A stretch of 64,000 nucleotides of DNA from Orobanche coerulescens. Its lineage: Eukaryota > Streptophyta > Magnoliopsida > Lamiales > Orobanchaceae. How positions within the stretch are numbered: the stretch's first letter is position 1; the number at the start of each line of letters is the position of its first letter. The notes under the pieces are model-generated. The model made no database searches. It saw nothing but the letters and a program-made list of their open reading frames with translations, and was not told the DNA's origin. The DNA is taken from positions 136,324,096 to 136,388,095 of the forward strand of contig CM065802.1 in assembly GCA_033398695.1 (NCBI GenBank). Direction: 5' to 3'. Made by a program: the position numbers and the translations under genes. This document shows, piece after piece, positions 4,063 through 49,065 of this stretch.

Positions 4063-4074
4063 GTCAGTCCAGGT

Positions 4075-4627
4075 TAGCGTGCGCTAGCCCTTGTGCGTAG
4101 CGTGCGCTAACGAGTAATTTGGGTAGTCCAGTACCCACTGTCCGAACACGAGCGCGCTACGTACCTTCTTGTAGCGTGCGTTACGGCCATATTACTAGCG
4201 TGCGCTAAGATCCATTATTAGCGTGCGCTAACGAAATATTGATGCCCGATCGGAGTCCGTAAAATCGTCGCCCTCCGATTCGACTCGATAGCGTGCGCTA
4301 CAACCATAGTTTAGCGTGCGCTAATATATCGATTGCGACGCTAACAACAACACATAGCGTGCGCTATGAATTAATCCAAAGGTACCAAAGAGCCACCGGA
4401 CTCAACTCGATCCGTCCCTAGCGCGCTTACCCACACATATAGCGTGCGCTACTACAACCCGTTAGCGCGCGCTACTTACCACTCGTAGCGTGCGCTACAA
4501 TATCTCACTGCAGTCCAAGACTTACGGATCGCAGCCAGACAACCTTAGCGTGCGCTAAAGCCGAGTGGTAGCGTGCGCTACCTATACCCAATTAGCGTAC
4601 GCTAAAAGGAGTATGTAGCGTGCGCTA
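4075..4627 (-). promoter_or_regulatory. Palindromic 12-mer array, element A LTR
   Basis: About 18 copies of TAGCGTGCGCTA and variants. Clear copies start at 4075, 4098, 4172, 4196, 4219, 4289, 4312, 4355, 4440, 4463, 4486, 4546, 4569, 4593 and 4616. Decayed copies lie near 4149, 4333 and 4419. The pitch is 23 bp (21-24). Counting away from the TATA box, the grouping is 2, 4, 4, 4, 4. Gaps between groups carry pieces like AGTCCAG. The function is unknown; the position just upstream of TATA suggests a proximal promoter or enhancer. Confidence 0.85.
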
Positions 4628-12695: not shown

Positions 12696-14290
12696 TCATA
12701 ATTCATGTCGAAGCATGCAGAATCTTGCTGTGTCGAGAGGTTTGGTAAAGATGTCGGCTAACTGGATATATGTATGAACTTTTTCCAGCTTAACATCCTT
12801 GTTCTCAACATGATTCCTAATGAAGTGATGTTTCATGTGAATATGCTTGATGCGCAAGTGCAATACAGGGTTGTGCGTGATAGTAATTGCACTCATGCTA
12901 TCGCACATAATTGGCGTTTCTTTGGCTTCAATTCCATAATCTGACAGCTGTTGTTGTATCCAAAGGATCTGCATACAGCAACTACCAGCAGCATAATATT
13001 CTTATTCAGCTGTTGAAAGCGAGTTTGCCAATTGTTTCTTACTAAACCAAGACACAAGTATAGGTCCAAGAAAGTGACAAATTCCACTTGTACTCTTCCT
13101 GTCTAGCTTGCAACCTCCGAGATCCGAGTCGTTGTAGCCAACTAAATTAAATCCGCCTTCTTTAGGATACCACAGTCCTACATCGACTGTTCCTTTGACG
13201 TATTTCAGGATTCGTTTGGCTGTTGTGAAGTGTGATTCTTTAGGTGCTACTTGATATCGCGCACAGACTCCTACAGCAAACTGGATATCGGGCCTTCTAG
13301 CCGTTAGGTACAGGAGTGAGCCAATAAGCTTCCTGTAGAGTGATTGATCAACCGGCTTTCCATCTTCATCAGCACTAATTTGCACAGAAGTGCTCATGGG
13401 GGTTGACGATGATTTGGAAGTATTCATTCCAAACTTGTTGAGAAGCTCCTTGCTGTATTTTTCCTGGTTGATGAAAATCCCTGTAGACATCTGCTTTACC
13501 TGCAACCCTAGGAAATAACTAAGTTCTCCCATCATAATCATTTCAAATTTACTTTGCATGATATTAGAGAACCGTTGACACAAAGCAAGGTTAGTTGAAC
13601 CAAATATTATATCGTCTACATATATTTGCACCATCAGGAGGTCATCACCTTCCTGTATTTTGAATAATATCTTATCCACAGCACCTTTCTCGAATCCATT
13701 ATTGGTTAGATACTGGGACAGAGTCTCATACCATGTTATAGGGGCTTGCTTAAGTCCATACAGCGCTTTCCTTAGCCTGTATACTAGGTCTTCGCCTTCT
13801 GGATTGACAAACCCTGGTGGTTGTTCAACATATACTTCTTCAGCAAGGTCTCCATTTAGGAATGCACTTTTGACGTCCATTTGGTATACAATGAAGCTTT
13901 TATGGGCGGTAAGGGCTAAAAATATCCTAATGACTTCTAGTCTGGCTACAGGGGAAAATGTCTCATCATAGTCTATGATTTCTTCCTGTCTATAGCCTTG
14001 GGCGACTAGTCGGTATTTATTCCTGATAATGAGTCCATTTCTATCCTTTTACTGATTGACGAGTAGGTCTGGGTACAAGATACCATACGTTGTTTCTTTC
14101 GAAATCGTTAAGCTCTTCTTCCATAGATGTGATCCAATGAGAATTGTTGAGAGCTTCTTAGGTAGAAATAAGTTCGGATTGGGCTAAGAATACATCAATA
14201 GTGCACATATTAAATCTTCTAAGCTCGGATTGAGATTTCCATTCAGGAAATGGAGATATCTCTGACTCGGGGTCTTCTTGCGATAGGCGA
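12696..14290 (-). pseudogene. Copia reverse transcriptase and RNase H (truncated)
   Basis: This would copy element RNA into DNA. From 13880 to 12696 a single frame gives the palm motif [12 protein letters not shown], then VYVEQPPGF, the thumb-side ALYGLKQAP and the catalytic YVDDIIFGS (about 13600), then YFLGLQV and [13 protein letters not shown]. The RNase H follows ([12 protein letters not shown]...RKSTSG), then ADIFTKPL, and the frame ends LRHEL. One in-frame TAA at 13002-13004 sits where copia proteins read STAEAEY. Upstream of 13880 the RT N-terminus (EALNNSHWITSMEEEL, then [12 protein letters not shown]) is readable but broken by stops and shifts. The acidic linker near 14230-14290 is the last recognisable part. 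Copia RT is certain from YVDD and LYGLKQ. Confidence 0.9.
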
Positions 14291-18470: not shown

Positions 18471-20236
18471 TGTGACACCCCCAAGTTAATCAGGGTATAT
18501 TACAGCGTCGTGAACACCACCGTGGGACCCACAAGGCTAATCATGTGCGGAACTATAAAACTTGACCGAGGAGGTCCAAATACAATGAAATGAAAGACGA
18601 TACAAAGGGTATTCAAACGATATCCAAGGTATCCAAATACATCACAGTACAAAATCAAAACCTCGTCATCACAGACCGGAACATCAAGGAAGACTGAAAA
18701 CAAGCAACACTCGAGTATTCAATAACCATTTCAGTACAACAACACTGAATGGAGAAACACAAAACATAACCGGAGATAAGACATAATATCACGCTTGCCC
18801 ATCATTTTCATGCCGACCCGATACTTGCCTGTCCGCTCTCCTGGAACCTGAAATACATAAAAAGTATTTCCCCCATAAAGGGGTTAGCCGTCGAATAGCT
18901 AGTACAAATATATCAAGTATGAAATACAATACTCCTCGACAATAAAGTAAAGGTAACCGTCAATTCATCAATTCAAGACTAGTGTTCCGGAATAACTAAA
19001 TCTCACAGCATCACAACAATGCATACATGATCAACCATGGAACTGCACCAGAGGCTACGGAACCCTCAGGGGACCCGTCGACCCGCCCCAGAGTGGTTAA
19101 CCCAAATTATCCGTGGAATTGCACCAAAGGCTACGAAACCCTCAGGGGACCTGTCGGCCCACCCCAGAGTGGATATAAACAATCATACCATTCATATATC
19201 TTACTTTCAAAGTCGAGAACGTATAATCATAAATATATACTTGCCTTTGAGACATCGAGAAATTGAACGGAAAAGAGTATGAGTTCGGTAGGTCCAAGAA
19301 CGCGCTTCCGGCACCTAAACGATTCGTAAGGGATATGATAATCAATAATCCATACTCATAATTCACAAAGAAACTCCCGAAACCCGTTTACAATTCACGG
19401 AAATACAAGGGTAAACAACTAGAGGTTGGAAAATCACCCAAACCCTCACAAGTCCGAACACGACACAAACCAATCCGTAAAATCGTAGGAAAAGCATGTA
19501 TACGGGATAGATACATCATAATATCAATTATTAGCCCAATATATACTCGCCCAGTCTATCACACGCTATGCCTCCATTATTTGCGTGCGCTAGCGAGGTC
19601 ACCGGGTAGTCCAGTGGCTTCTGCCGGCCCCGTTAGCGTGCGCTAATCGCCTATCTTTAGCATGCGCTATCCAAAAGTGGTGTCCAGAAACTGGAGTCCA
19701 GAACCTACTGTCCTCTGCCCTGCTCGGGTCTTAGCGTGCGCTACCGCGATAGCTTAGCGTGCACTACGCAGCTCTTATAGCGTGCGGTAGCCGAAGCATA
19801 GCGTACGTTACCTGATAGTCCAGACAGCCTGACAACTCCACCGCCTCTGCCGGCCCAGCCCGTTAACGTGCGCTACGGACGGATGTTAGCGCGCGCTACT
19901 GACCACGAATGGCGTGCACTAACGAACTCCTAACACGTGTTAACTGCCAGTCCAGAAAGCAGAATGAGTTACTGGTTATGACCTGACTGGTCCCTTAGCA
20001 CGCGCTACGGCTCAAAGCTAGCGTGCACTACTCAAGGATAATTAGCGTGCGTTAGCCTAGGCCCGTGCGCTATTTCTCTGACCCAGAACACTTCCGCAAG
20101 GTCAAAACAACACGATTTTGATCCAAACAAGATATGAAACTCTATAACAATATCGACAACATTACCAAGAGTTTACAGAGTGAAGAAATAAGAAAAACGG
20201 CAAGATAAAACAGTCAATAAAAGTACGGGTATTACA
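18471..20236 (-). repeat. 5' LTR of element F
   Basis: The LTR is 1766 bp, from TGTGACACCCCC to GGGTATTACA on the plus strand. It holds the palindrome array (19557-20072) with a TATA-like TATATATT (minus, 19539-19546). It also has a duplicated GC-rich element at 19056-19105 and 19130-19180 (CCCTCAGGGGACCCGTCG... and CCCTCAGGGGACCTGTCG...). Confidence 0.9.
19557..20072 (-). promoter_or_regulatory. Palindromic 12-mer array, element F LTR
   Basis: About 18 units, starting at 19557, 19581, 19634, 19658, 19732, 19755, 19778, 19799, 19864, 19887, 19910, 19931, 19996, 20019, 20043 and a worn unit near 20061. Pitch is mostly 23-24 (21 at block ends). Groups counted from the TATA box are 2, 2, 4, 4, 4. 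Variants include TAACGTGCGCTA and TAACACGTGTTA. Words like GTCCAGAAACTGGAGTCCAG lie between groups. Confidence 0.82.
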
Positions 20237-22286
20237 GTGGACCCCACACATTGGAGTCCACCAGTCTAACGTACCAATATGATATTCGACAAAGACAAAC
20301 ATCAATAACACACAGACAATTTCTCAATCCACGACATTTAAATTCAAAGACTGAAATTTGACAATACAATTTGACATCAAATCCATTCCCAAAATGGGTA
20401 CACAAAATTAATAAATTCAAGAAATAAGTACTCGAGTACTTAAGCAAATGACATAATAAGGAAATCCCAAAATAAGACACCAATAGACAACCATTGAACC
20501 GAATCACACCTGCCCATTATCCTCATACGGCTCGCATGCTCGTTTGCTTCCATGACCTGTACCTGAAATACAAAAGTATTTCCCCCATTTAAGGGGTTAG
20601 CGACAACTGCTAGTGCAAGTACAATCCATTTGAACTACCATTCTAATCAGATGAATAATGCGCCAAAAATCACTTTAGAAAACATTTATATTCCGGAATA
20701 TTTACGGTGCACAAGCAGAAAACACATTTCTCCAACAAAACAATTCAAAGTTAACCGTTGGTACGAGACTCACGGCCACTGTACCCCGCAGAGCCCCGTC
20801 GGACATCCCTGGGTGATTAACCATAGTTCGTGATACACACACTCATGGCAATACGTATCCCTAGAGGCCCCATCGGACCGTCCCTAGGTGAACATACACA
20901 TATCCATCCACAACAACCACGAAAACCAATAATCTAAATACTAGAACATGTAAACAAATGTAAAGTACTTGCCTTTGAGACATCTTCGAAGAATCGAGAA
21001 TGAATAACGACTACGAACGATCCGGATGGAAAACGACGGTTCCTAAATGAAGGATTAACATAACTCAGTCCTAACGGACAACAATAATCGAATGGAAAAT
21101 GCCCAAAACCCCGATTACAAGCTATGACAATATACGTTCAATCGATACGGGCGAGGGTTTACGCAAAATCTCCCCGAATCGATAATTCGCGGATTAATCT
21201 TGATGAAATCGGATTGGGAATTACCCGATTACAATAATTGGTAAGGAATAATACAACATACTTGAACAATTCGAGTTTCGATGAACAAAACCCGAAACCC
21301 CCCCAAAATTGACAAAGTAGGGTTCAAAGTCAAAATACCTTGAATTGGAGTGGAGAAGATGGATTACGATGATGATGTACTAAGCTTGGAACACAAGAAT
21401 CAGTCTGCAATGAGACTCCATGGATTACTCTCAACAAATCGCCCTAAAATCCCCGCAATCGCCCAAAGGAAGAGAAGAGGAGGAAAAATGAGGAGAAAGG
21501 GGGCTGTTGTCCTATTTATATAATGCATAGTTAGCGCACACTAGCTGTTGCCCGGTGTCGCTAGCGTGCGCTAGACATGTTTAGGGCGCGCTAAATACTA
21601 CTCGATAGCGTACGCTACAGAAGCCTAGCGCACGCTACCTGATCGTCAGAGTACAGGATCCTAAGTTCAGAACCCCCACTGGCTAGCTTGCTAAAGTCGT
21701 TAGCGCACACTAATAACAACAAGTTAGCGTACGCTAAGCGCACGCAAGGAGATAAAGAGTAGCGTGCGCTACTCACGCAGCAGTTCAGTACACTGCTGCA
21801 GAAGGTACGAAAATCGAAATGCAAGGCAAGGCCATAATCCAGAAACATGAACACGAAATATACAAGACGACGGAACTAAGCGTTGAAAGAAAGTAAAATT
21901 CCGACTATTGGGGGATCCAAAATACGATAAAGAAGATAAAATTCCCTAAACTTATAGGAAATTACAAAAATGGCCCAAATGTCCGAAAATCACGATAGAA
22001 CGTCGGATTCACAAATCGAAACTCACAACACGAACAAATCAACCATACGAACTTATGTAAACGAAGAAACCATGAAAACGAACGAGTTTAACGAGAATTG
22101 AACGTACATACGGCAAAACATAACATAAAGTGGAATTACGTAAAAACATCTCTGAAACTCGTCCAAATGGAAAAACTCCAGAAACAAAGTAGATTCAAAA
22201 CGTCGAAACGGTTACAAGCGAGTCGATAAAAATAGACATACACGAAAAATGGAAACTACTAAAAATGGAAAGGTACGGATATTACA
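20237..22286 (-). repeat. 3' LTR of E0, outer end missing
   Basis: Aligns with the right LTR from GTGGACCCCACACATTGG onward but lacks about the first 46 bases, which F has displaced. It has about 150 bp (around 21975-22124) that the right LTR lacks. It lacks part of the array that the right LTR keeps (second 12-mer and the spacer after it). It contains two GC-rich elements at 20785-20825 and 20855-20895. Confidence 0.9.
21532..21771 (-). promoter_or_regulatory. Palindromic array, E0 3' LTR (contracted)
   Basis: Contains TAGCGCACACTA at 21532, TAGCGTGCGCTA near 21562, several worn units, and TAGCGTGCGCTA at 21760-21771. It has fewer units than the sister LTR because of internal deletions. TATTTATA (minus TATAAATA) at 21513-21520 is 11 bp away. 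Confidence 0.75.
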
Positions 22287-22296
22287 TTCTCCCCCT

Positions 22297-24174
22297 CTAA
22301 AAAGAAGTTTTGTCCCGAAACTTAAGAATCAAAAAGCTCGGGGTGCCTCGAACCATATCCTCCTCCAACTCCCACGTTGCTTCCTCTACTCCGTGCTTCG
22401 ACCATTGCACTTTAACCAAAGGAATGGTTTTGTGCCTTAATTGATTGTCTCGACGTTCCAAAATCCTGATGGGCCTCTCCTCAAACGTAACGTCTTTATC
22501 GATCTCCACATCTCCGAAATGAATAACATGGGACGGGTACGGAACATACTTCCTCAGCTGAAAGATGTGAAATACACTATGCACATGACTCAACGACGGA
22601 GGCAATGCCAATCGGTACGCCAATTCGCCAACTCTCTCTAATATCTCGAAAGGTCCAATATACCTCGGGCTGAGCTTCCTCTCTTTCCCAAAATGGAAAA
22701 CTCCTTTCGACGGAGACACTCTCAACAAAACATGATCTCCCACCTCAAACTCTAAAGGTCGACGCCTAACATCCGCCTAAGACTTTTGTCGACTCTGAGC
22801 CGCCAACATCCTCTCTCTAATCAATTCAACTTTTTCCCTCGTCTCTAACACAAGATCCGGCTCGATGCCGACTAGATCGGACAGCTCATCCCAACATATC
22901 GGTGATCGGCAACATCGGCCATAAACCGCCTCATACGGTGCCATCTTAATCGACGTGTGTCAGCTATTATTATACGTAAACTCGATCAAGGCCAGATGCT
23001 CCTCCCAGTCACTACTCCAGTCTAACGCACACGCACGTATCATATCCTCGAACGTCTGAATGGTACGCTCGGACTGCCCATCGGTCTGAGGATGGAAAGA
23101 TGTACTCAAACGCAACCGTGTCCCCAATGCCTTATGTACCTCCTGCCAGAAATGCGATACAAACCGGCCATCTCTATCCAAAATAATAGTTTTCGGCGTA
23201 CCATGAAGTCTCACTATCCGTGCGATGAAAATACGAGCCAATTTTTCTGGACCCCAAGTATCCTTGATGCCTAGAAAATGTGCCGACTTAGTCAGTCGGT
23301 CCACGATCACCCACACTATATTCATTCCAGTCTTCGTCCTCAGCAAATTCGTGACAAAATCCATCGAGATATCTTCCCATTTCCATTACGTAACGGGGAG
23401 TGGTTTCAACAATCTGGCTGGCCGCTGATGTTCGATCTTGACTTGTTGACAAGTCAAACACTTAGCCACAAACTCAACTACCTCATTCTTCATGTCATTC
23501 CACCAGAAATTCTTCCTCAAATCTTTATACATGTTACTCGAGCCCGGATGGACTGAGTAAGGTGACGCATGAGCCTCCCGCATAATACTCTGCCTCAATT
23601 CCAAGTCGTTCGAAACACACAGCCGACCTTGGAATATCAACACACCATCCTCATGTATCACGAATCCCAGGGCTCTCCCCTTCCCTACATTCTCTCGAAG
23701 CTCAATAAACATCGGGTCTTCCAACTGTCCCGATTTAATGTCGTCGACTAGAGACGAAGAAATCTCAAGAGTACGCAACTGCCCGGAACTCTCTGGTAGT
23801 ACAATCTCAATGCTCAACCTCATGAACTCTCGCTGGAGTCCTAGATGGGCTGTAAGTAACTCAAGCGCCCGAAGCGATATCGATTTCTGGCTCAAGGCAT
23901 CTGCCACCACATTTGCCTGGCCCGGATGGTAAAGGATCTCGAGGTCGTAATCCTTAATCAACTCTAACCATCTCCGCTGTCTCATGTTTAGTTCTTTCTG
24001 CATGAAAATGTACTTCAGGCTCTTGTGATCGGTGAAAATCTGACATGACGATCCATACAAGTAATGACTCCATATCTTCAATGCAAACACAACCGCGGCC
24101 AAATCAAGATCGTGGGTAGGGTAATTCAACTCGTACGGTTTCAACTGACGGGAAGCATAGGCAATCATCCTCCC
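22297..24174 (-). pseudogene. E0 RNase H end, integrase and chromodomain-like tail
   Basis: This would remove RNA from hybrids and insert the DNA copy. The frame stays open from the E1 junction to 22297 apart from stops at 23386-23388 (TAA, where Gln is expected), 22960-22962 (TGA, Trp expected) and near 22780. In order: RNase H ([33 protein letters not shown]), then the HHCC zinc domain ([15 protein letters not shown] ... CLTCQQVK). The integrase core has Asp in IVDRLTKSAHF, Asp in LDRDGRF and Glu in DGQSERTIQTFED. Then come GPFEILERVGELAYRLALP and a chromodomain-like end (VQWSKHGVEEATWELEEDM). The usual stop has changed to a Lys codon, so the frame reads into the PPT hairpin. E1 split the gene just after the RNase H motif CVLMQHG. 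Confidence 0.9.
24170..24174. repeat. Target site duplication of E1, left copy
   Basis: CTCCC, identical to 33642-33646. Joining the flanks once across this duplication restores the RNase H protein order of E0 (CVLMQHG then RMIAYASRQ). Confidence 0.95.
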
Positions 24175-24397
24175 TGTAATACCCGGTTGTAATTCAGTCA
24201 TTATCATTCAGTAATTATCGTCCAGTAATTGTCACTCAGTAATTTTCACTCATTAATGATCATTTGTCACTCATATTCAATCATTGTATTCACCGTTCAG
24301 AGTAATTGTATCAATCGTCATTCATCATCAATCTAGTTGGAGAATTGTGTCGTGTTTATCATCATTGTCATCTTCATAGTGGGCTGTGTGTGAGGAG

Positions 24398-24965
24398 TAG
24401 CGCATGCTATGAACTCTCTTTAGCGCGCGCTAATTGAGTTCAAGTAGCGCACGCTACCTCTCAACACTAGCGCACGCTAATGCAGTTCAAAGTAGGTAGT
24501 CCAGAAGGCACTGGACTGCAGTTGGGTTGTGAGTAGCGCACGCTACGAATGGTAAGTAGCGCGCGCTAGTTGGTTGGAGTAGCGCACGCTATGCAGTCGG
24601 TGTAGTGCGCGCTAAGGTCGATCAGGCAGAGTCCAGTGGCTACTGGACTGAATTGGAATAATTCCTAGCGCACGCTACGAGTAGATATTAGCGTATGCTA
24701 ATCGGTGTCAGTAGCGCACGCTAAATCTTGTGTGTAGCGCGTGCTACCATGATCAGATCAGAGAACAGGAGGTTCTGGACTTCAGTACTAGACACCAGAT
24801 AAGTCGTTAGCGCACGTTAACATTTTGTGTTAGCGCACGCTAAATACATGGTTGTAGCGCACTCTACAAGAGGTACGTAGCGCACGCTACCGTTGCGAGC
24901 AGAGTATACTGGACTACCCAGTATACCTGTTAGCGCACGCTACGCATAGGAGCTAGCGCGCGCTA
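24398..24965 (+). promoter_or_regulatory. Palindromic 12-mer array, E1 5' LTR
   Basis: Eighteen units starting at 24398, 24421, 24445, 24468 / 24534, 24557, 24580, 24603 / 24666, 24689, 24712, 24735 / 24808, 24831, 24855, 24878 / 24931, 24954, that is 4+4+4+4+2 at 23-24 bp pitch. The consensus is TAGCGCACGCTA, with TAGCGCGCGCTA as a regular alternative. Spacers between groups contain inverted repeats: AGTCCAG-N6-CTGGACT at about 24498-24517 and 24630-24650, and GTATACTGG-N5-CCAGTATAC near 24904-24926. Confidence 0.93.
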
Positions 24966-24977
24966 ATCCGAGGACAG

Positions 24978-24985
24978 TATAAATT
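24978..24985 (+). promoter_or_regulatory. TATA box of E1 5' LTR
   Basis: TATAAATT begins 24 bp after the start of the last palindrome, that is, exactly one array pitch further on. Confidence 0.75.
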
Positions 24986-26629
24986 GGACAGTGTAGTCCA
25001 AATTCGTCATTTGCCATTTCTTTTCATTCCTTCATCGATTTTGGGCGATTTGGAGCTTCTTGAGGAGTGTTCTTCGAGGTGAAATCAGCTATCAACATTT
25101 CCAAGCATATAAACTAGAGTAATCATCATTTCATCATCTTCAACATCATAATAAAGGTAATCACCTTTTGAATCTAGGAATTCGGAGTTCAAGTGTTTTC
25201 CTTCCGATTTATTCGTGTAAGCTTGGATTGTTGTTGGAATATGTTAGATATGGATTATCTATCTTGGATAAATGTATTCCTACGGATTTTATGGCATATA
25301 TTTGGATTTCATGAATTATTGTGGGTTTGAATCAAGAACACTTGGTGTTGACTTTGATATTTTTGGGGGTTTTCGATTAGATGTTGTCGTTAACTCGAAT
25401 TTTGGATTCCTATGGGATTATTGATATCATTGAAGTTGCTTTGTTGGTTTGAAATACTCATTTTGGAGTTGGTCTTGATATATTCGGGATTTGGATATCA
25501 TCGAAGGATGTATGTTTCTAAGTATTCGCTAGAATGCCTCAATGAGTTTGGATATTGTTGTATCGACGTTTAAGTTAGTTATAATCATGTTTGATACGTA
25601 TATTGTGCGTTTGTTGGTAATTGTCATTCAAGGTTGTTCTAGCGACCGACATCTCATTGTAGGACGTTTGTTCGAGGAAGGACATTCTTCACCGGTTGAG
25701 TAAGTTAATTCTTACTCGGTTAAAAGGATATTCATTCCTTTTGTTGTTGTTCATTCATAATCGTAATTCATTCATAATATATTACCCATATTGAGACTTG
25801 TAATTATCAATTAATCACTTCATTCACGAGGAACGACGGTTAAAATCATTTCATTGAGCTATCATTCATTTCACTATCATTTCATCTCGGTGAGTCATTC
25901 TTGACTTTGTCGGATTGTTATTCATTATTATTCGTCACGGTCATTTCTTGTCCGTATGACCTTCTGGGTCTATATTGCGTGGCCGGGTGGGGATGTGTGG
26001 AATTTTTAGTCGGGCACGTGATGGTCATGTGTTGGGTTCACCGACACATTAGACTGTGCACACGGTAATGTACTTCCGTGAGACTAATTAGGTACAAGGA
26101 CGGGTGTGTCCGGACACTCGTCTTGTGCACTTGGACATACCATTACGGGCATACTATGATGCCTCTCTTCAGCGTCATTTTATAATTAAGATGTATCATG
26201 ATTGTGTTATTCAACTCTTGAGGATTGTTGTTCTGTGTAACTGACCCCGTTGGGGGATGTTGTTTTCAGGTCATGGCAAGGCCAAGGCATGGGAAGAGAA
26301 CGTTGACGGGGAGGAGTCCCAGTGGTACTAGTAGGGGCCCCCAGTCTTTTCATTCACTCGTGTTTTCTTTATTTTATTTCCGCTGCAGACTTCCATTTGG
26401 ATATTCATTTCATTCTGTGTTGTATATTTTATCTTCATATAAAATATACATGTATTTGGTATTATCTTGGGTGTGTTGTAATGGAACTCCTCATCGGAGT
26501 GATTGATGATATATCGTGGTTCGGTACTACAATTATATTATTTAATTCATTAATTTTCATTTGCCTGGTGGGTCCCAGTCGGGGGTCCACGGCACTATAA
26601 TATCCGCCTAGTTTGGGGTGTTACAGAGT

Positions 26630-26641
26630 TGGTATCGGAGC
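26630..26641 (+). promoter_or_regulatory. Primer-binding site, E1
   Basis: TGGTATCGGAGC four bases after the LTR, with the same one-base difference from tRNA-iMet complement as element A. Confidence 0.88.
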
Positions 26642-27124
26642 GTGGTTTGAATACTACCTTCCGAGTCATGTCTCAATTGAAATAATCGTTCATCAGACTA
26701 GTATCATTGGACTTTCGCATCACGTGTGACCTGTGCAAGATCCGTGCCCCTCAGACCAAAGAACAGTAAGATTTCTGACGCCATGGTATAATTTCTGGCA
26801 TAAGAATCACTCATTCATCATTCATTAGTCAACAATCCTCAAACATCATTTTCATTTTTGATCATGTCGATCATGTTAACTCATTAATCAATCGGTTCAT
26901 CTCATTAATCAGTTGTTGATCTTGTGGATCGTATCATTAATCTTGTTAACTTGTTCAAGATAATCATTTCAAGAATTTCATCATATAATCATGTCACCTC
27001 AATTGATCATTCATGTAATCATTGTGTTAGAGCACGTGTGCTAATTATTATCATTTCATAATGTAAATCATAATGCGGTACTCATGCGAGATCTATGATT
27101 ATCATGCAACCTTCCTACTTCAGT
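26642..27124 (+). other. Untranslated leader of E1
   Basis: AT-rich, with many ATCATTCA/TTAATCA words and no recognisable gene. It precedes the gag start at 27125. Confidence 0.6.
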
Positions 27125-27820
27125 ATGGAGAGAGTTGTCAGGGGACACAGGGGGAGAGGCCGCGGTGCGGGCCGAAACCCGGGAAATAATCACTCACTGT
27201 CGGGAAGTCGTACCCAGGACTCAGCTCGATCCAAAGATGTTCGGGTTGATCCACTCACTTTTATACAGGTCATGATGACCCATATGCAATTGCTTAATCA
27301 TCATTGTGCCACTCTGGCCGAATTAATCGAGAGAACTCTCACGTATGAGCCTGCAGCTAAGGTAGTTGCTGGGCAACAAACTTCATCTTCTGGAAAGAAA
27401 TCGAAGAAGCGTAATCAGCCCGAAGGCGGACAGGCAACCTTCAAGAAGCCTCGTGCGAGTCCTAACTTTTTTGAGCGACCTCCTACGGTGCCTAAACCTG
27501 CGGGATCTCAGTCCCGAGCGGCCAGATCAGCCATCACCTGTTTCAACTGTGGAGCGCCGGGTCATTACAGCACTAAGTGTCTGAAACCGTCTATCACGTG
27601 CCATAATTGTGGGGTTGTTGGGCATAAGGCCCGTTTTTGCCGAAGGGACTCCAAGCCGACTCCGGCGGCATCTCAGGCCCCGAAGCAATCAGTGATTCAA
27701 AATCAGGCTGCTCAGTCAGTGTCGTTTAAAACGACAGAAGCGAATAAAGGCGGAGCTCATATTTATCAGTCAAGAGCATCCGGTTTGGGGGCCGGCAAGC
27801 CCCGAATTTACGAGATGTAG
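27125..27820 (+). pseudogene. E1 gag with the capsid core deleted in frame
   Basis: Start chosen at the Met of MERVVRGHRGRGRGAGR. The frame is open to a TAG at 27818-27820. It has the Gly/Arg N-terminus, the linker VRVDPLTFIQVMMTH, then directly MQLLNHHCATLAELIERTLTYE. Compared with element A about 170 codons are missing here, including the WW region and the middle of the capsid, and the frame is kept. A Lys/Arg-rich linker, two perfect zinc knuckles (CFNCGAPGHYSTKC, CHNCGVVGHKARFC) and the tail GAGKPRIYEM follow. The TAG replaces the Lys codon with which A continues into protease. Such a gag probably binds RNA but could not form a normal shell. It would depend on gag from other copies. Confidence 0.85.
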
Positions 27821-27844
27821 AGGAGCAACGATCCGTAGGCCCGA

Positions 27845-28123
27845 ATGATCTCAGGTACCCTCAAAATTTTATCTCAACCTGTGTGTAACCTTTTTGATAC
27901 TGGAGCATCACATTCATTCATTTCCGAATCATGCTTGAATAGACTTCACTTGGATAGTCCTATTAATTGTGAACCTTATATCATTGGTCTACCTGGCGGT
28001 ATAAGAATTATCGGAGATCGTGAGATTAAGTATTTTCTGATTCAGCATCATGGCCGTATATGGCTGGCAGGCCTAATCGTGGTGGATGTACTGAGAGACG
28101 ACGTCATCTTGGGTATTGATTAA
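27845..28123 (+). pseudogene. E1 protease (fragment)
   Basis: In frame with gag after two stops (27818-27820 and about 27836-27838). Contains the aspartic protease signature NLFDTGASHSFISESCLNRL, then REIKYFLI and DVLRDDVILGID, ending with TAA at 28121-28123 where relatives have WMDRHDA. Catalytic Asp-Thr-Gly is present. The linker to RT (MDRRDSILIVRE) follows for about 75 bases before foreign-looking sequence starts near 28205. Confidence 0.85.
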
Positions 28124-28204
28124 ATGGATCGTCGTGATTCCATACTTATTGTCCGTGAACGTATGGCCACGATCATTTCAGACGATGGAGTCGAGTGTGT
28201 ATTT

Positions 28205-28565
28205 TAAAATGGCATATACTGGGTAATCGTGGATTTGATTGTTTATATTTGTAAAAAGTATATTTCAAACAGTATTCTTATCCATTTTGAAATGGCTTTC
28301 GATACTTTGCAATCTGAGTTCTTACTTCGTAAAACCGATTCCCTAAATCGAGTTTTGGCATTGGCCTTGAACGTTTAAACGATATTATTATGACGGTATT
28401 TGGTATTTGGAAAATGGAATATTTTTTTTCTTTTTCTGTATTTGAAAAATATTACCGTCATCGATATTTTTGGCATTTTTGTAAGGACGTGGAAAATTGT
28501 GTTTAGCCTGGTAAATCCCTGTGAGAAGGGTTTACGGCGTGTAAGATTCCCAGGAGGATTCTGTT
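28205..28565 (+). other. Non-coding replacement between protease and RT of E1
   Basis: About 360 bp of AT-rich sequence with no gypsy similarity. It stands where the RT N-terminus (PYRMAP to IDYRKLN) should be. I see no terminal repeats or target duplication around it, so I cannot say whether it is an insertion or filler at a deletion. TTTTGGCATT occurs twice (28353-28362, 28469-28478). Confidence 0.55.
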
Positions 28566-29198
28566 TCGCATTGTTGGAGTGACGTGTTGGGTCAGTTTCA
28601 AGGAGCTTCCGTATTTTCAAAGATCGATTTAAGATCTGGGTATCATCAGTTGCGAATTCGAGAGTCGGATATCGCTAGGTCGGCGTTTCGAACACACTAT
28701 GGTCATTATGAGTTATTGTAATGCTGTTTGGGTTAACTAATGCACCTGCGGTATTCATGGAATTATTGAATCAAGTTTTCATCGATTATTTGGATCAGTT
28801 CGTGATTGTCTTCATTGATGACATTTTGATTTTATTCTCGTGATTAAGAGGAGCACGAATTTCACCTTCATCAAGTTCTCGACGTGTTGAGACGAGAGCA
28901 ACTTTATGGAAAATTTTCCAAGTGTGAGTTCTGGATGTATGAAGTGACGTTTCTCGGACATGTAATTTCATCAGACGGAGTTCGTGTCGGCCCTCAGAAG
29001 ATGGAGGCTATCCGAGATTGGCAACCTCCGAAGAATGTTAAGAAAATCCGAAGCTTTCTCGGATTAGCTGGTTATTATCGGCTATTTGTAGAAGGATTTT
29101 TTAAAATCGCTCAACCCATGACGAACCTTTGGCGGAAAGATAAGTGATACATGTGGTCCGACGCGTGTTAACGGAGTTTTGAGGAACTCAAGAGTCGT
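28566..29198 (+). pseudogene. E1 reverse transcriptase, N-terminus missing
   Basis: Readable pieces in order: [37 protein letters not shown], then after a shift [18 protein letters not shown], and the active site VFIDDILI (about 28810-28835). A further stop follows before [36 protein letters not shown] and [18 protein letters not shown] (28884-29147). Stops at about 28840 and 29145 and a shift near 28720 break it. The fingers region is absent. It cannot be active, but the FIDD active-site residues themselves are unchanged. Confidence 0.85.
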
Positions 29199-30020
29199 TT
29201 GATTTCAGCACTTGTCCTTTCCTTGCAGCAAGGGACGGAGGGATTCGTAGTTTGTAGTGACGCATCCGGTCAGAGTCTCGGATGTGTACTAATGCAGAAC
29301 GAGAAGGTTATTGCCTATGCTTCATGGAAATTGAGACCTTATGAGGTCAATTATCCGACCCACGGCCTTAAGCTAGCAGCCGTGGTCTTCGTATTGAAGA
29401 TTTGGCATCATTATCTTTATGGCTTCACCTGTCAGATCTTCACCGATCATAAGAGCTTGAAGTACATATTTACTCAGAAGGAGTTAAATATGCGACAGAG
29501 GCGGTGGTCGGAATTAATTAAAGATTATGATATTGAGATACTTTACCACCCGGGCAAGGCGAACGTTGTCGCCGACGCCTTGAGTCGTAAGTCCGTTCAA
29601 GAGCAGATGATTGCTCGATTAACAGTTCAGAAGGAACTTCAGCAGGAATTTCTGAGACCCGAGATCGAGGTCTGGTTACAGCGAGTACAAGGGCAACTTT
29701 GTACGTTAGAGATTTCATCGCCACTTGAGAAGGCGATCAGGGAGAATCAGGGTTTGAACCCATTTTTGTTACGCATTCGAGATGATGTGACTCAGGGGAA
29801 AGCCCCTGGGTTTGTGGTCCACGAGGATGGACTTTTGCGATTTAAGAATCGGTTGTGTGTACCGGCGAATGACGAGTTGAAAAAAAACACGATTTTGAGA
29901 GAAGCTCATGCTACCCCTTATTCCGTTCATCCGGGGTCTAGCAAGATGTACAAAGACTTGAAACAAAATTACTGGTGGAGTAATATGAAGCGAGAAGTCG
30001 CGGAATTTGTTTCGAGATGA
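29199..30020 (+). pseudogene. E1 RNase H and integrase zinc domain
   Basis: An open frame of 273 codons. RNase [75 protein letters not shown], giving the catalytic Asp/Glu/Asp set. Then a helical linker and the integrase HHCC domain: [52 protein letters not shown]. The stop TGA (30018-30020) takes the place of the first Cys of the CLTC motif, which is intact in E0. The remaining [11 protein letters not shown] continues in the same frame. The stop separates this part from the integrase core. Confidence 0.9.
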
Positions 30021-31157
30021 TTAACATGTCAGCAAGTCAAGATAGAACATCAGCGACCGGCGGGTATGTTGAAACCTCTCCCTATTCCAGAGTGGAAGTG
30101 GGAGGATATTTCAATGGACTTCATCACAAGTTTACCGACGAGTCGTCGTGGTATGAATACAATTTGGGTAATTGTGGACCGTTTAACTAAGTCAGCTCAT
30201 TTCCTGGAGATTAAGGATACGTGGGGTCCCGAGGGACTTGCCCAATTGTTCATTAAAGAGATAGTAAGATTACACGGTACTCCTAAGAGTATCATTTCGG
30301 ATCGTGACGGGAGATTCGTGTCATATTTTTGGAAATCAGTTCATCGTGCTATGGGAACTCAGCTTAATCTCAGCACAACTTTTCATCCTCAGTCCGACGG
30401 ACAATCAGAGAGAACTATTCAGACGTTGGAGGACATGTTGAGAGCATGTGTTCTCGATTGGAAGGACGATTGGGAAGCCCAACTACCGTTGATCGAATTC
30501 ACGTATAACAACAGTTGGCATGCTTCGATTAAGATGCCACCTTACGGGGCCTTGTACGGTCATTGTTGTCGATCTTCCTTGTGTTGGGATGACTTATCAG
30601 AATCAATCGGCACCCAGCCCGATATGCTTATAGACGCCCGCGAGAAGGTAGCTTTGATCAGGAGTCGTTTGTTGACCGCTCAGAGTCGACAGAGATCTTA
30701 TGTAGATAACCGTCGTCGGCCACTAGAGTTCGAGACAGGTGACCATGTTTTGGTCAAGGTATCCCCGATTCGAGGTATCTTCCGTTTTGGGAAGAGGGGA
30801 AAGTTGAGTCCGAGATTCATTGGACCGTTTGAGATTTTGGATCGAGTAGGCGATTTAGCTTATCGATTGGCCTTACCTCCGGCGTTGAGCCGAATTCATA
30901 ATGTGTTTCACGTATCTCAATTATGGAAGTATGTTGCCGACCCAAGCCACATACTTCAGTTCGACGAAATCGAGATCGCCGATGATCATTCATACGAGGA
31001 GCGTCCTATACGAGTCTTAGAGCGACGAATCAAAAAGTTGAGGAACAAGACGATTCCTTTGGTAAAAATTCAGTGGTCTAGACACGGAGTCGAAGAGGCT
31101 ACTTGGGAAACCGAGGATAGTATGCGGGAGAGTCATCCCGAGTTGTTTGACCCTTAG
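30021..31157 (+). pseudogene. E1 integrase core with chromodomain-like tail
   Basis: Continuous to the natural stop at 31155-31157, but without its own start because of the stop at 30018. Core: WKWEDISMDFITSLP, IVDRLTKSAHFLEIK (first Asp), SIISDRDGRFVSYFWK (second Asp), FHPQSDGQSERTIQTLED (Glu). Then AAQ-type helix, the GPFEILDRVGDLAYRLALPP GPY/F module, HNVFHVSQLWKY, and the end RRIKKLRNKTIPLVKIQWSR plus VEEATWETEDSMRESHPELF. This end is the degenerate chromodomain of the Tekay/Del lineage, expected to steer integration to marked chromatin. Length and motif order match the lineage. Apart from the upstream stop it appears undamaged. Confidence 0.92.
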
Positions 31158-31190
31158 TTTCGGGGACGAAACTCTTTTAAGGGGGGTGTA
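31156..31190 (+). promoter_or_regulatory. Terminal hairpin and polypurine tract of E1
   Basis: AGTTTCGGGGACGAAACT (31156-31173), a 7-bp stem with 4-base loop that overlaps the pol stop codon. It is followed by CTTTTA and the PPT AAGGGGGGTGTA that primes plus-strand DNA. Confidence 0.85.
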
Positions 31191-33641
31191 TGTAATACCC
31201 GGTTGTAATTCAGTCATTATCATTCAGTAATTATCGTCCAGTAATGGTCACTCAGTAATTTTCACTCATTAATGATCATTTGTCACTCATATTCAATCAT
31301 TATATTCACCATTCAGAGTAATTGTATCAATCGTCATTCATCATCAATCTAGTTGGAGAATCGTGTCGTGTTTATCATCATTGTCATCTTCATAGTGGGC
31401 TGTGTGTGAGGAGTAGCGCACGCTATGAACTCTCTTTAGCGCGCGCTAATTGAGTTCAGGTAGAGCACGCTACCTCTCAACACTAGCGCACGCTAATGCA
31501 GTTCAAAGTAGGCAGTCCAGAAGGCACTGGACTGCAGTTGGGTTGTGAGTAGCGCACACTACGAATGGTAAGTAGCGCGCGCTAGTAGGTTGGAGTAGCG
31601 CACGCTATGCAGTCGGTGTAGCGCGCGCTAAGGTCGGTCAGGCAGAGTCCAGTTGCTACTGGACTGAATTGGAATAATTCCTAGCGCACGCTACGAGTAG
31701 ATATTAGCGTATGCTAATCGGTGTCAGTAGCGCACGCTAGATCTTGTGTGTAGCGCGCGCTACCGTGATCATATCAGAGAACAGGAGGTTCTGGACTTCA
31801 GTACTGGACACCAGATAAATCTTTAGCGCACGCTAACATTTTGTGTTAGCGCACGCTAAATACATGGTTGTAGCGCACGCTACAAGTGGTACGTAGCGCA
31901 CACTACCATTGCGAACAGAGTATACTGGACTACCCAGTATACCCGTTAGCGCACGCTACGCACAGGAGCTAGCGCGCGCTAATCCGAGGACAGTATAAAT
32001 TGGACAGTGTAGTCCAGATTCGTCATTTGCCATTTCTTTTCATTCCTTCATCGATTTTGGGCGATTTGGAGCTTCTTGAGGAGTGTTTTTCGAGGTGAAA
32101 TCAGATATAAACATTTCCAAGCATATAATCCGGAGTAATCATCATTTCATCATCTTCAACATCATAATAATGGTAATCACCTTTTGAATCTAGGAATTCG
32201 GAGTTCAAGTGTTTTCCTTCGATTTATTCGTGTAAGCTTGGATTGTTGTTGGAATATGTTAGATGTGGATTATCTACCTTGGATAAATATATTCCTACGG
32301 ATTTTATGGCTTATATTTGGATTTCATGAATTGTTGTGGGTTTGAATCAAGAACACTTGGGGTTGACTTTGATATTTTTGGAGGTTTTCGATTAGATGTT
32401 GTCGTTAACTCGAATTGTGGATTCCTATGAGATTATTGATATCATTGAAGTTGTTTTGTTGGTTTGAAATACTCATTTTGGAGTTGGTCTTGATATATTT
32501 GGGATTTGGATATTATCGAAGGATGTATGTTGCTAAGTATTCGCTAGAATGCCTCAATGAGTTTGGATATTGTTGTATCGACGTTTGAGTTGGATATAAT
32601 CGTGTTTGATACGTATATTGAGCGTTTGTTGGTAATTGTCATTCAAGGTTGTTCGAGCGACCGACATCTCATTGTAGGATGTTTGTTCGAGGAAGGACAT
32701 TCTTCACCGGTTGAGTAAGTTAATTCTTACTTGGTTAAAAGGATATTCATTCCTTTCGTTGTTGTTCATTCATAATCGTAATTCATTCATAATGTATTAC
32801 CCGTATTGAGACTTGTAATTGTCAATTAATCACTTCATTCACGAGGAACGACGGTTCCAATCATTTCATTGAGCTATCATTCATTTCACTATCATTTCAT
32901 CCCGGTGAGTCATTCTTGACTTTGTCGGATTGTTATTCATTATTATTCGTCACAGTCATTTATTGTCCATATGACCTTCTGGGTTCATATTGCGTGGCCG
33001 GGTGGGGATGTGTGGAATTTTTAGTCGGGCACGTGATGGTCATGTGTTGAGTTCACCGACACATTGGACTGTGCACACGGTAATGTACTTCCATGAGACT
33101 AATTAGGTACAAGGACGGGTGTGTCCGGAGACTCCTCTTGTACACTTGCTCATACCATTACGGGCGTACTATGATGCCTCTCTTCAGCGTCATTTCATAA
33201 TTAAGATATATCATGATTGTGTTATTCAACTCTTGAGGATTGTTGTTCTGTGTAACTGAACCCGTTGGGGGATATTGTTTTCAGGTCATGGCAAGGCTAA
33301 GGTACGGGAAGAGAACGTTGACGGAGAGGAGTCCCAGTGGTACTAGTAGGGGGGCCCAGTCCTTTCATTCACTCGTGTTTTCTTTTTTTTTATTTCCGCT
33401 GCAGACTTCCATTTGGATATTCATTTCATTCAGTTTTGTATATTTTATCTTCATATAAAATATACATGTATTCGGTATTATCTTGGGTGTGTTGTAATGG
33501 AACTCCTCATCGGAGTGATTGATGATATATTGTGGTTCGGTACTACAATTATATTATTTAATTCATTAATTTTCATTCGCCTGGTGGGTCCCAGTCGGGG
33601 GTCCATGGCACTGTAATATCCGCCTAGTTTGGGGTGTTACA
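31191..33641 (+). repeat. 3' LTR of E1
   Basis: The LTR is 2451 bp, the same length as the 5' LTR and about 2% different in the part I compared. It ends GGGGTGTTACA, followed by the CTCCC target duplication. Confidence 0.96.
31414..31981 (+). promoter_or_regulatory. Palindromic 12-mer array, E1 3' LTR
   Basis: Same 4+4+4+4+2 layout as the 5' LTR, first unit 31414, last 31970-31981, with TATAAATT at 31994-32001. Each LTR has its own worn units (for example TAGCGCATGCTA at 24398 against TAGCGCACGCTA at 31414), so they decayed after insertion. Confidence 0.93.
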
Positions 33642-33646
33642 CTCCC
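33642..33646. repeat. Target site duplication of E1, right copy
   Basis: CTCCC directly after the 3' LTR end GGGGTGTTACA, matching 24170-24174. Confidence 0.95.
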
Positions 33647-35141
33647 GTGCTGCATGAGTACACATCCGATCCCCTAGCCCGAAGCGTCACTAAAACTGAG
33701 AAACCCTCATTACCACTCGGTAAAGCCAAAATGGGGGCTGTCGTCAACCGCTTCTTTAACTCTTTGAAACTCTTCTGCCTCTCGTCGGTCCACACAAACT
33801 TTTCTGACTTCTGTAACAACTGAGTCAGTGGTCGAGCGAGCTTAGAGAACCCCTCGACAAATATACGATAATACCCAGCCAAACCCAGAAAACTACGGAC
33901 CTCCTTCACGTTTTTTGGCGGCGCCCAATCCAGTACTGCCTCTATCTTATGTGGGTCCACACGTACACCCTTGGCCGAGATCACGTGACCGAGAAACATA
34001 ACCTCCCACAACCAAAACTCACACTTTGAGAACTTCGCAAAAAGATGCCGAGTTCTCGAGATTCCCAACACGATATGCAAATGGCGTGCATGCTCCTCCT
34101 CACTCGAGTAAATCAAGATATCGTCAATAAAGACAACTACACACTTATCGAGGTATTCGATAAAGACTTTGTTCATAAGCTACATGAACACAGCTGGGGC
34201 GTTGGTTAGCCCAAAAGGCACAACCACAAACTCGTAATGATCGTATCTCGTCCGAAAGGCCGTCTTCGGAATGTCGGAATCCTTCACTCGGAGCTGATAA
34301 TACCCCGACCTCATATCAATCTTAGAAAACACGGTTGCCCCTTGCAATTGGTCAAACAAGTCATCAATCCTCGGAAGCGGATACTTGTTTTTGATAGTCA
34401 CTTTGTTCAACTTTCTATAGTCGATACACAAACGAAGTGACCCATCCTTCTTCTTTACAAACAGGACCGGTACGCCCCAAGGCGAAGCGCTCGATCGAAT
34501 ATACCCCATGTCTAGCAACTCTCCCAACTGTTTCTTCAACTCAAGCATCTCGGCAGGCGCCATACGGTATGGCGACTTAGAAATTGGTGCTGCACCCGGC
34601 TCTAAATCCACAGTAAACCCAACCTCCGGGTCTGGCGGCAAACCCGGCAACTCATCTGGAAAGACGTCAGGATACTCACACACTACCGGAATAGACGAGA
34701 GCTCAACTCCCCCTTCTTCCGATCTCAAAGCATAACACCAATAACCCGTGCAACCTCCTCGAAGAAGTCTCACAGCTTTCAAAGCGCTGACCAGAAATCT
34801 CTGACTACTCCGATTACGCCCCACAAAAGAATGGTCGGTACCGTCAGAGGCTAACATCGAAACGGTTCTCGTTCTACAATTCATGATCGCCCCATGACGG
34901 TCCAGCCAATCTTCACCAAGAATCAGATCCTCGTCTTTAATATCTACCGCAATCAGATTAGAAGCCAATCCCTCCCCGCGATACTCACCGGAAAATCTCT
35001 AATCTCACGATCCCCCACGATGCTATCCCCACTAGGCAGTTTAACAACAAATGGTTTACACGCAATTAGGCGATCAACATGCAGACGATGCACACAATCC
35101 ATAGATATGAAAGAAAGCGTAGCACCAGAATCGAATAACAC
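33647..35141 (-). pseudogene. E0 protease and reverse transcriptase
   Basis: 5' half of the E0 pol. Protease: LFDSGATLSFIS (DSG variant of the catalytic DTG) at about 35130. A frame change near 34960 leads to [16 protein letters not shown], then the [78 protein letters not shown], and the active site [10 protein letters not shown] (about 34130). A single in-frame TAG at 34180-34182 follows APAVFM, where Gln or Asp is usual. The connection domain ([27 protein letters not shown]) follows. A one-base loss near 33690 shifts the start of RNase H just before the E1 insertion at 33642-33646. All core RT motifs are present, so the lineage assignment to Tekay-like chromoviruses is firm. Confidence 0.9.
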
Positions 35142-36429
35142 AGAAACACGGAAACAGCTCGTCTCATCTCATACACACGGGGCGGAACAGACCCCGCACT
35201 AGAAGCTCCCCCTCTAGAAGGCTGCCCACGTCCTCGACCTCTACCGAAACTCTGCTGAGGCTGAGAAGCTATCGGTGCCTGATTAACGCTCGGTTCCCCT
35301 GCCGCTGGGGATGACACCTGAGTAACTGGTGCCCGAGCCGCATCTGTACAAAACTTAGCACGATCTCCCATCCTACCGCAAGCAAGACACGGAATCGGAG
35401 CCCTGTCACACTCACTTATCATGTGTTCGGGACGACTGCAGTTAAAGCAGGTAGGACCACGAAAGGAACCAGTAGGAGCAGACTTAGAACCATTTCCTCG
35501 CCCAAACGATGGGGACTGACTCCCGAAGACTCGCGAACCAGACTGAGCCTTCTGATACCCACCAGACTTACCTCCCGAAAACTGTCCGGAGGTCTTCTGT
35601 TTCTTTCCCTCGGTTGCTGTCTCTGTAGCAGAAAACGACATCTCATAAGCCAATGCCTTGTTCTGATAATCTTTCAGAGTTTTACATCCAAGACCAGACA
35701 TGTAGTGATGAACCCTCGGCTTCATCCGCATGTCAAAGTGGCGGATTTTGTCTAACTCGTCTCGGAGCTGGTTTCTCAAATAATGAAGTTGTTGGTTGTA
35801 TCCTTGATTGCATGCGAAATCGGAACATTTTGGGGCTTAGCCTCAAAGAAGGCTCGGATCCTCCACTCTTTAACTGGGCACGGACAAAATTCGTCCTCCA
35901 TCAACTCTCGAAACTCTACCCACGTGGCTACTCGATCTCGTGGTCTCACTGCTTGCCACCACGTTGCTGCCTCCTTGGCGAGGATGTACTGAGCGATGGG
36001 TACCTTCCTCTCCTCGGGGTAGTTAGCCGCCTGAAACACCTTCTCCATCTCAAATAACCAACTCTCCCAACTGAAAGGGTCGGAAGTGCCATCAAACTGC
36101 GGAAGACGCATACGAATCACGTCCTGAAGTAACTTATCATTGCCGGTTCCAGTAGGCGGAACCGGGTTGGCATTAGCTTGGCCGACCAAGACGGCCTGAG
36201 TTAGTAGCGTCATCTGGTTCGCTACTTGCTGCAAAATATTTGCCACTCCGATATTCTCATGAGCATTACCGGAGCTAGAAGATTGATCCTGCTGGCCTCC
36301 GGAACTAGGTGGAACACTGTTCGACAAGGAAGTCATCCGAATCAATTCCCGAGTTATCAGACATGGCCGCCCCACCGGCTGCGCCACATCCCCTACCGCG
36401 TCCGCGACCGCGTCCTCTACCAGTAGGTA
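35142..36429 (-). pseudogene. E0 gag with frameshifts and lost start codon
   Basis: The N-terminal Gly/Arg tract (GRGRGRGRGCG) can be read from about 36426. The codon that aligns with the F start Met is ATA, so the start is lost. A shift near 36340 leads into the frame with SLSNSVPPS, the capsid core (RMRLPQFDGTSDPFSWESW, AATWWQAVRPRDR, EFRELMEDEFCPCPVKEW) and a stop near 35776. A second shift there restores DELDKIRHFDMRMKPR, TLKDYQNKALAYEM, a basic Gly/Ser linker and two zinc knuckles. In the first of these a Gly is replaced (CFNCSRPEHMISEC), and the second is CLACGRMGDRAKFC, where His is replaced by Asp. Then come GRGRGRGQPSRGG and VYEMRRA. Overall it is about 60% similar in layout to the intact F gag. 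Confidence 0.85.
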
Positions 36430-36636
36430 TTCTGAAAAAGTAACGGGTGAGTACAATTCAAACGCAAAACGCAACAAGATACCAAGAAAGGAACCGAATA
36501 GAACAACGTAACGAGTCAAGTTAGGAGAAACTTACGAGCACCGGCGTACTGAGATGATGGCGTAGCAGTGATACTGTTCAAAAACGACACTCAACTAGAC
36601 CTAAATAACCGACAGCCTAGGCATCCATAAACTTAA

Positions 36637-36648
36637 GCTCTGATACCA
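36637..36648 (-). promoter_or_regulatory. Primer-binding site, E0
   Basis: Exact TGGTATCAGAGC on the minus strand, five bases from the LTR edge at 36654. Confidence 0.9.
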
Positions 36649-36653
36649 TATTC

Positions 36654-49057: not shown

Positions 49058-49065
49058 TATTTATA
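49058..49065 (-). promoter_or_regulatory. TATA box of element C LTR
   Basis: TATAAATA on the minus strand, 11 bp from the first array unit at 49077. Confidence 0.7.

Follow-up and report, generated by a model that had tools for sequence, protein, structure and literature searches.

Among described systems, the closest to the arrays reported here are the repeated motifs (RM) of Sirevirus (Ty1/copia) LTRs, short palindromes clustered ahead of the TATA box in the upper half of the LTR, each element having 8 copies or more (PMC2829016). According to the text sections of that report, the RM are CpG-rich, stay conserved amid divergent flanks and lie in CpG island clusters, and 12 of the 13 tabulated motifs have a CGG-CCG core; the same sections name no single binding factor as identified (PMC2829016). 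The LTR palindrome regions of the maize Sireviruses Ji and Opie are hotspots of small RNAs (Bousios 2016, as summarized in PMC5311732 and PMC10760457). Tobacco Tnt1, a copia element, is also described, in the portions of two reports that treat it, as having regulatory boxes in its U3 that are repeated or symmetric (PMC3601003, PMC2829016). Generally, in the corresponding sections of a study of LTR structure across many clades, whose chromovirus model is drawn mainly from fish elements, U3 holds few recognizable motifs besides TATA (PMC3601003).

The window analyzed here, meaning the whole stretch of DNA, is 64,000 nt of Orobanche coerulescens (GCA_033398695.1, CM065802.1, positions 136,324,096-136,388,095, forward strand). 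An earlier note on it had described 18 palindromic 12-mers ahead of a TATA box in the LTR of one element, E3, and had pointed out that palindrome clusters are known in Sirevirus LTRs; the text of the Sirevirus report places them before the TATA box (PMC2829016). Like the RM, the arrays of the window are palindromic, have at least 8 copies per element and lie upstream of TATA. Unlike them, they belong to Ty3/gypsy elements, E3 having a gypsy-type RNase H and an SH3_Tf2-1 integrase, and their core is TWRCG-CGYWA instead of CGG-CCG. They also combine a pitch of ~23 bp, blocks of four, a CTGGAC motif and a TATA cassette, whereas the text sections on Sirevirus give no spacing rule (PMC2829016). Their CpG observed/expected ratio is 1.13-1.69 against 0.94-1.37 in the remaining LTRs. 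With Ji and Opie, as far as the two summaries describe them, they share a palindrome cluster in the LTR cis-region, fast-evolving surroundings and strong predicted RNA structure, but they differ in motif and superfamily. With Tnt1, as partly described, they share repeated or symmetric LTR boxes, although Tnt1 is copia; we know of no pitch of ~23 bp in Tnt1. The layout is palindrome clustering in another superfamily, new in its spacing rule. Among the titles and abstract openings listed in a literature search, none describes the motif or its layout; a machine-learning study of plant LTRs mentions, in the sections consulted, nothing resembling the 12-mer arrays (PMC11656987), and the words 'palindrom' and 'TATA' are absent from the text of a study of sunflower LTR elements including Tekay (PMC11728184).

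Results

E3 (24175-33641) is a plant Ty3/gypsy element of chromovirus type. Its 5' LTR (24175-26625, plus strand) is 96% identical to its 3' LTR (31191-33641, plus strand), the LTR ends read TGTAATACCCGG...GTGTTACA, CTCCC borders the element on both sides, and a PBS-like TGGTATCGGAGC follows the 5' LTR at 26630. In the internal region (26626-31190, plus strand), open reading frame matches identify a gag zinc knuckle (27074-27820), a gypsy-type RNase H with the N-terminal part of integrase (29172-30020), and the integrase end (30021-31157), in the gypsy-type order Gag, RNase H, integrase; the integrase zinc-binding and SH3_Tf2-1 domains are among the matches. The chromodomain match is weak (E 1.7e-4, 21.9 bits, under the curated cut-off of 25.1), and PF00385 is present in several of the protein relatives among the best 120 of 7991 scored, the named members of which all come from flowering plants. 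The reverse transcriptase is visible solely as a short similarity to a second element, E2, in which E3 is nested and whose RNase H/integrase region it splits (20237-38668). No relative turned up when viral contigs were scanned with a protein as guide. Near the LTR start, ahead of the array, a 14-bp tandem repeat (ATTCAGTAATTATC, 5.2 copies) occupies 24192-24264.

All 18 of the described units, hereafter A units, are present in the 5' LTR (24398-24965, plus strand), 12 as exact TAGCGYRCGCTA and six with one mismatch, in blocks of 4, 4, 4, 4 and 2. Unit starts are separated by 23, 24 and 23 bp in the first block, 23, 23 and 23 in the second and third, 23, 24 and 23 in the fourth and 23 in the last, with steps of 66, 63, 73 and 53 bp between blocks. 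As had been claimed, the TATA box (TATAAATT, 24978-24985, plus strand) takes the next slot, 24 bp past the last unit start, and the 3' LTR repeats the array with identical spacing (31414-31981, TATA at 31994). Most of the units, however, are imperfect palindromes, the center being CA in 12, CG in five and TA in one.

The layout is there in E3 but is not limited to it, nor are the gaps between blocks empty. They contain a second, often inverted motif, CTGGAC (the B site). Gap 1 holds the inverted repeat AGTCCAG-N6-CTGGACT (24498-24517) and gap 2 AGTCCAGT-N4-ACTGGACT (24630-24649); in both, the CTGGAC half begins 23 bp ahead of the following A unit. Gap 3 has a half-site, CTGGACT (24775-24781), 33 bp before the next unit, and gap 4 an inverted repeat (24904-24926) with CTGGAC at 24909, 22 bp before the next unit and 69 bp before TATA; all four are on the plus strand. 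In E3, at least, the gaps are part of the design. The promoter-proximal pair of A units (24931-24965, plus strand) starts at -47 and -24 from TATA, and directly after the TATA box lies another inverted repeat, TTGGAC-N6-GTCCAA (24984-25001, plus strand). Its center is 14.5 bp after the TATA start, the same distance as in element E4, where a perfect 10-bp inverted repeat, AAATATGACT-N4-AGTCATATTT (49062-49039, minus strand), begins inside the TATA box; a post-TATA inverted repeat may be a further shared element of E3 and E4.

Read from its sequence, the A unit resolves into two abutting inverted hexamers, TWRCGY, and across arrays the core is TWRCG-NN-CGYWA. TAGCG and CGCTA lie exactly 2 bp apart 58 times in the window, and at all other distances from 0 to 12 bp together only once. 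When the center was left free, it was pyrimidine-purine (CA, TG, TA or CG) in 58/58 strict and 77/77 loose matches, which fits two abutting half-sites with C or T as the sixth base. Chance origin was ruled out by shuffles and random placement. Exact TAGCGYRCGCTA occurs 58 times against a mean of 0.0 in 100 Markov shuffles, and the wider pattern TWRCGYRCGYWA 77 times against a mean of 0.15 and a maximum of 1; all 77 matches lie within 1000 bp of an identified LTR start, 74 of them within 800 bp. In an unbiased count, the two commonest 10-mers of the window are TA microsatellite and the next 13 all overlap the A unit. In six LTR arrays, with one LTR taken from each element and up to two mismatches allowed per unit, 47 of 76 neighboring intervals measure 22-24 bp; 5000 random placements gave 6.0 on average and 15 at most. 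At three mismatches, chance unit matches climb to 4.5 per kb.

Arrays were found in the LTRs of five further elements, all on the minus strand: one close relative, E1 (LTR start 4853), and four distant ones, E2 (38668 and 22286), E5 (20236), E4 (50075) and E6 (62757). E1 shares 76% DNA identity with E3 and 48-61%, in pieces, with its Gag. By local tblastn, as for E1, the E3 Gag piece is 27% identical to E5, 29% to E2 and 33% to a gag at 63536-64000, which we infer belongs to E6; E4 gave no match, and the integrase ends of E3 and E2 are 69% identical. The arrays, all on the minus strand, span 4062-4627 in E1 (units 4627 to 4075, TATA 4062), 19545-20054 in E5 (units 20054 to 19557, TATA 19545), 37976-38288 in the E2 5' LTR (TATA 37976), 21520-21771 in the E2 3' LTR, 49065-49494 in E4 (TATA 49065) and 62175-62550 in E6 (TATA 62188, overlapping the last unit). 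At most two mismatches allowed, the eight LTR copies hold 9-18 units each. Random spacing in other members had been named as the outcome that would speak against the layout; in these five elements, only E1 of which is of the same family, spacing is non-random.

Blocks of four recur, and the commonest layout is distal blocks of four with a pair beside TATA, but exceptions exist among the six elements. With block sizes depending on the mismatch limit (here two), E3 has 4,4,4,4,2, E1 4,4,1,2,3,2, E5 3,4,4,2,2, the E2 5' LTR 4,4,2, E4 1,3,4,2,2 (the lone unit probably being a chance match) and E6 4,4,3. Off-pitch intervals include 20 bp in E2, 21-22 bp in E4 and E5 and one of 18 bp in E6. Despite a Gag match of ~29%, unit starts upstream of TATA in E3 (24, 47, 100, 123, 147, 170, 243, 266, 289, 312) and in the E2 5' LTR (23, 47, 101, 121, 145, 165, 240, 264, 288, 312) are at most 5 bp apart over ten units. 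The E5 LTR, starting at 20236, directly adjoins the point at which the matched stretch of the E2 3' LTR stops, and E5 therefore seems to have inserted into that LTR. Within 46681-54340, the stretch 52422-54340 is a probable 5' LTR of E4 that matches the 3' LTR in its downstream portion alone and has no array, and an E6-like LTR fragment (60297-60538, 90% over 240 bp) has two units near its start and then other sequence. Elsewhere, an open reading frame encoding a Pif1 helicase 2B domain (38878-40077, minus strand) is perhaps a Helitron remnant or a piece of a Pif1-like gene, and a copia-type reverse transcriptase (RVT_2) lies at 13002-14048 (minus strand), around which a self-comparison of the window gave no LTR pair.

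Most tightly fixed in these arrays is how far the last two units and CTGGAC lie from TATA. A unit precedes TATA by 21-24 bp in all six elements: 24 bp in E3 and E1, 23 in E5, E2 and E4, and 21 in E6, where another unit overlaps the box. Since TATAWA-type boxes are sparse (1-5 per LTR), this fixed distance is unlikely to be a pick among many. Five of the six elements have A units starting at -47/-46 and -24/-23, those of E4 being at -46 and -23. In four (E3, E1, E5 and the E2 5' LTR), they belong to a cassette that has CTGGAC at -69, followed by the units at -47 and -24/-23 and then TATA; CTGGAC starts 22 bp ahead of the proximal pair. The value of -69 varies with the chosen TATA start: in E2, an overlapping TATATA begins 2 bp earlier than the start used and would give 67 and 21. 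The cassette deviates in E4, where the CTGGAC copy has diverged, in E6, where it is shifted, and in the E2 3' LTR, where part of it, including CTGGAC, is missing. CTGGAC or GTCCAG occurs 26 times within the arrays, which total 4.33 kb over eight LTR copies (E3 and E2 contributing two each), against 16 times in the remaining 59.7 kb, a ~22-fold higher density; because the motif was spotted by eye before counting, this enrichment is no independent test. By array, the counts are six in the E3 5' LTR, eight in the E3 3' LTR, two in E1, five in E5, none in the E2 3' LTR, one in the E2 5' LTR, three in E4 and one in E6. In the other gaps of E5, CTGGAC lies 13, 13, 32 and 18 bp before the next A unit. 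The B site uses a slot of the A-unit ruler near the promoter but not everywhere.

E6 carries a switched core. Both halves are changed from TAGCG to TWACG or, once, CTACG in nine of its 12 units, and the remainder are two hybrids with one TAGCG half and one unswitched unit. The result is mostly TWACGTACGTWA at the same pitch of ~23 bp, with blocks kept; upstream of TATA, seven of eight within-block intervals are 23-24 bp and one is 18. The occurrence of hybrids alongside changes in both halves indicates that half-sites behave as independent modules. As read from the units, the switch fits the spread, through unit turnover, of a change in the putative binding protein or in its preference.

The motif itself had suggested binders of two kinds, CGTGYG being the BZR-type (BRRE) core and CGCG the CAMTA core. 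CGTGYG is found in 10 of 18 units of the E3 5' LTR, 13 of 15 in E1 and none of 12 in E6, and CGCG in 5/18, 1/15 and 0/12, respectively. With E6 units having neither, neither core is common to all arrays, and a BZR-type or CAMTA-type binder of every array is not supported; BZR is possible for the CA-centered units alone. An SBP (GTAC) core was also rejected as not common to all arrays. Scans for the pattern in viral and in bacterial collections returned a single hit apiece, and both hits were judged unrelated. In viral-collection contig L001 (12696-12730), TAGCGTGCGCTA and TAGCGCACGCTA are separated by 23 bp, equal to the pitch of the arrays; this may be an operator of bacterial or phage origin and the agreement coincidental. 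Bacterial genome record L002 has two TAGCGCACGCTA 22 bp apart.

Within arrays, units are 83-97% identical, a figure inflated by picking units for their likeness to the consensus, and the flanking 11 bp are 25-32% identical, a random level free of that inflation. Comparison of the E3 5' LTR with E1, with units defined in E3 only and Fisher tests applied, gave differences at 11/210 unit positions (5.2%), 96/322 spacer positions (29.8%) and 276/1772 positions of the remaining LTR (15.6%); the E3 3' LTR gave 11/211, 100/326 and 274/1774. Between the two LTRs of E3, in contrast, the classes are alike (units 8/216, 3.7%; spacers 16/352, 4.5%; remaining LTR 73/1882, 3.9%). Units at 5% against spacers at 30% between lineages, with all classes at ~4% within the E3 copy, suggest that units are held during replication of the element and released in the resident copy, as would be expected from selection on the active element. 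Spacers between E3 (24398-24965) and E1 (4627-4075) also differ about twice as much as the remaining LTR, a contrast not seen between the E3 LTRs; array turnover and escape from homology-based silencing are possibilities for this fast change.

Other comparisons were less clear-cut. The E2 5' and 3' LTRs differ at 4/94 unit positions (4.3%), 13/146 spacer positions (8.9%) and 5.6% of the remaining LTR, with 14 unit columns in gaps. In an unanchored alignment of E3 and E2 LTRs, there is little separation between units (33/165, 20.0%) and spacers (76/266, 28.6%), probably through misalignment of such distant LTRs. An anchored E3-E1 count gave a lower unit identity (191/216; equal-length spacers 75/135) because three decayed E1 units were included. 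Interval lengths are equal between E3 and E1 for 12 of 14 within-block and TATA intervals and for none of four gaps (Fisher 0.005). Gap spacers are four to five times longer, however, and at a minimum of two length changes in ~160 bp versus four in ~205 bp for gaps the per-base rates are not clearly different, so this contrast is not relied on.

Discussion

The idea that the array is a platform for a dimeric protein near the promoter is the reading that fits best, with TAGCG and CGCTA fixed 2 bp apart and TATA 21-24 bp after a unit in 6/6 elements. From sequence evidence, we consider it likely that the array would serve as the upstream enhancer and proximal promoter of a plant Ty3/gypsy lineage of chromovirus type, for a dimeric host protein. 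Each A site, with its two TWRCGY half-sites, would be bound by a host DNA-binding protein as a dimer, and dimers one ~23-bp pitch apart could touch their neighbors and bind cooperatively in pairs and in pairs of pairs. The last A pair and the B site at -69 would then contact the machinery at the TATA box, provided this TATA is the start signal used, and would set the strength or timing of transcription, presumably by activation and not repression. The accompanying claim on phase is not supported for the helix: 23 bp is ~2.2 turns, not a whole number, so neighboring units face different sides. In phage lambda operators, inverted-repeat sites lie ~23-24 bp apart, center to center, and are bound by cooperative dimers, with three sites per operator region; lambda is bacterial and unrelated, and the analogy is functional only. 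Across E3, E1, E5 and E4 the center is CA 42 times and never TG, so the sites have an orientation, for which a plain homodimer has no need; shared ancestry of the units may explain it.

The main rival is that the palindromes act as RNA (or cruciform DNA) structure, with the U3 transcript folding into hairpins that supply small-RNA silencing or have a role in the RNA of the element, an idea put forward for the maize Sirevirus palindromes; here we regard it as unlikely. RNA of 24390-25000 does fold far beyond shuffles (z -7.9, 0/20 as good), whereas the next 611 nt do not (z +0.41, 15/20 shuffles as good). E3-E1 spacers differ more than the remaining LTR, and the Sirevirus palindrome regions are, in the accounts cited, rapidly evolving small-RNA hotspots (PMC5311732, PMC10760457). 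Yet any palindrome array folds strongly, hairpins need no fixed distance to TATA, and the CA-centered units (12/18 in E3) would pair with two central mismatches, their TG partners being absent in E3. Slightly less probable still is a repressor or methylation platform, not an activator, at which a host silencing or methylation-reading protein binds the sites. The consensus unit has two or three CpGs at fixed places, CpG observed/expected is 1.13-1.69 in arrays against 0.53-1.35 in their spacers alone, and five of the eight unit differences between the E3 LTRs are CpG transitions. The remaining LTRs, however, are not CpG-poor (0.94-1.37), and that of E4 (1.32) exceeds its array (1.14). Conserved bases extend past CpG to the T and A at the unit ends, and an element should lose sites that merely silence it, whereas E3 and E1 keep them.

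That the array arose chiefly as a side effect of tandem duplication, a minisatellite with little function, seems very improbable and is largely refuted by the contrast in conservation between units and spacers. Tandem Repeats Finder reports short 23-bp repeats in blocks 2 and 4, the former also having one of 46 bp, and since part of block 2 resembles a 46-bp duplication, some of the regularity comes from copying. Corresponding spacers between blocks are slightly more alike (0.303 vs 0.259), but with a permutation p of 0.27 not significantly so, and block duplication was rejected as an origin. A whole-period minisatellite was likewise rejected, with flanks 25-32% identical and just 2.0-2.6-copy stretches reported in the array by Tandem Repeats Finder. 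Spacer identity is at the random level, so the array is not a plain minisatellite, and the unit and much of the cassette are kept in elements whose Gag matches are 27-33%.

Returning to the dimer platform, we more tentatively suggest that the arrays reflect an old chromovirus-type LTR grammar, B(-69) A(-47) A(-24) TATA with distal A tetrads on a 23-bp ruler, that has outlived nearly all of its surroundings. Its half-site specificity may switch symmetrically, as in E6, and it would mark a dedicated plant dimeric factor, or a pair of paralogues, that the elements have followed over evolutionary time. The question of what activates the abundant plant Ty3/gypsy elements thereby becomes directly approachable: the 9-18 bait-like sites per LTR, set at a constant distance from TATA, make the DNA a means of retrieving the factor, and the symmetric change in E6 provides a natural specificity pair for binding tests. 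A spacing rule kept over such strong divergence would also be a rare readable promoter grammar in plants.
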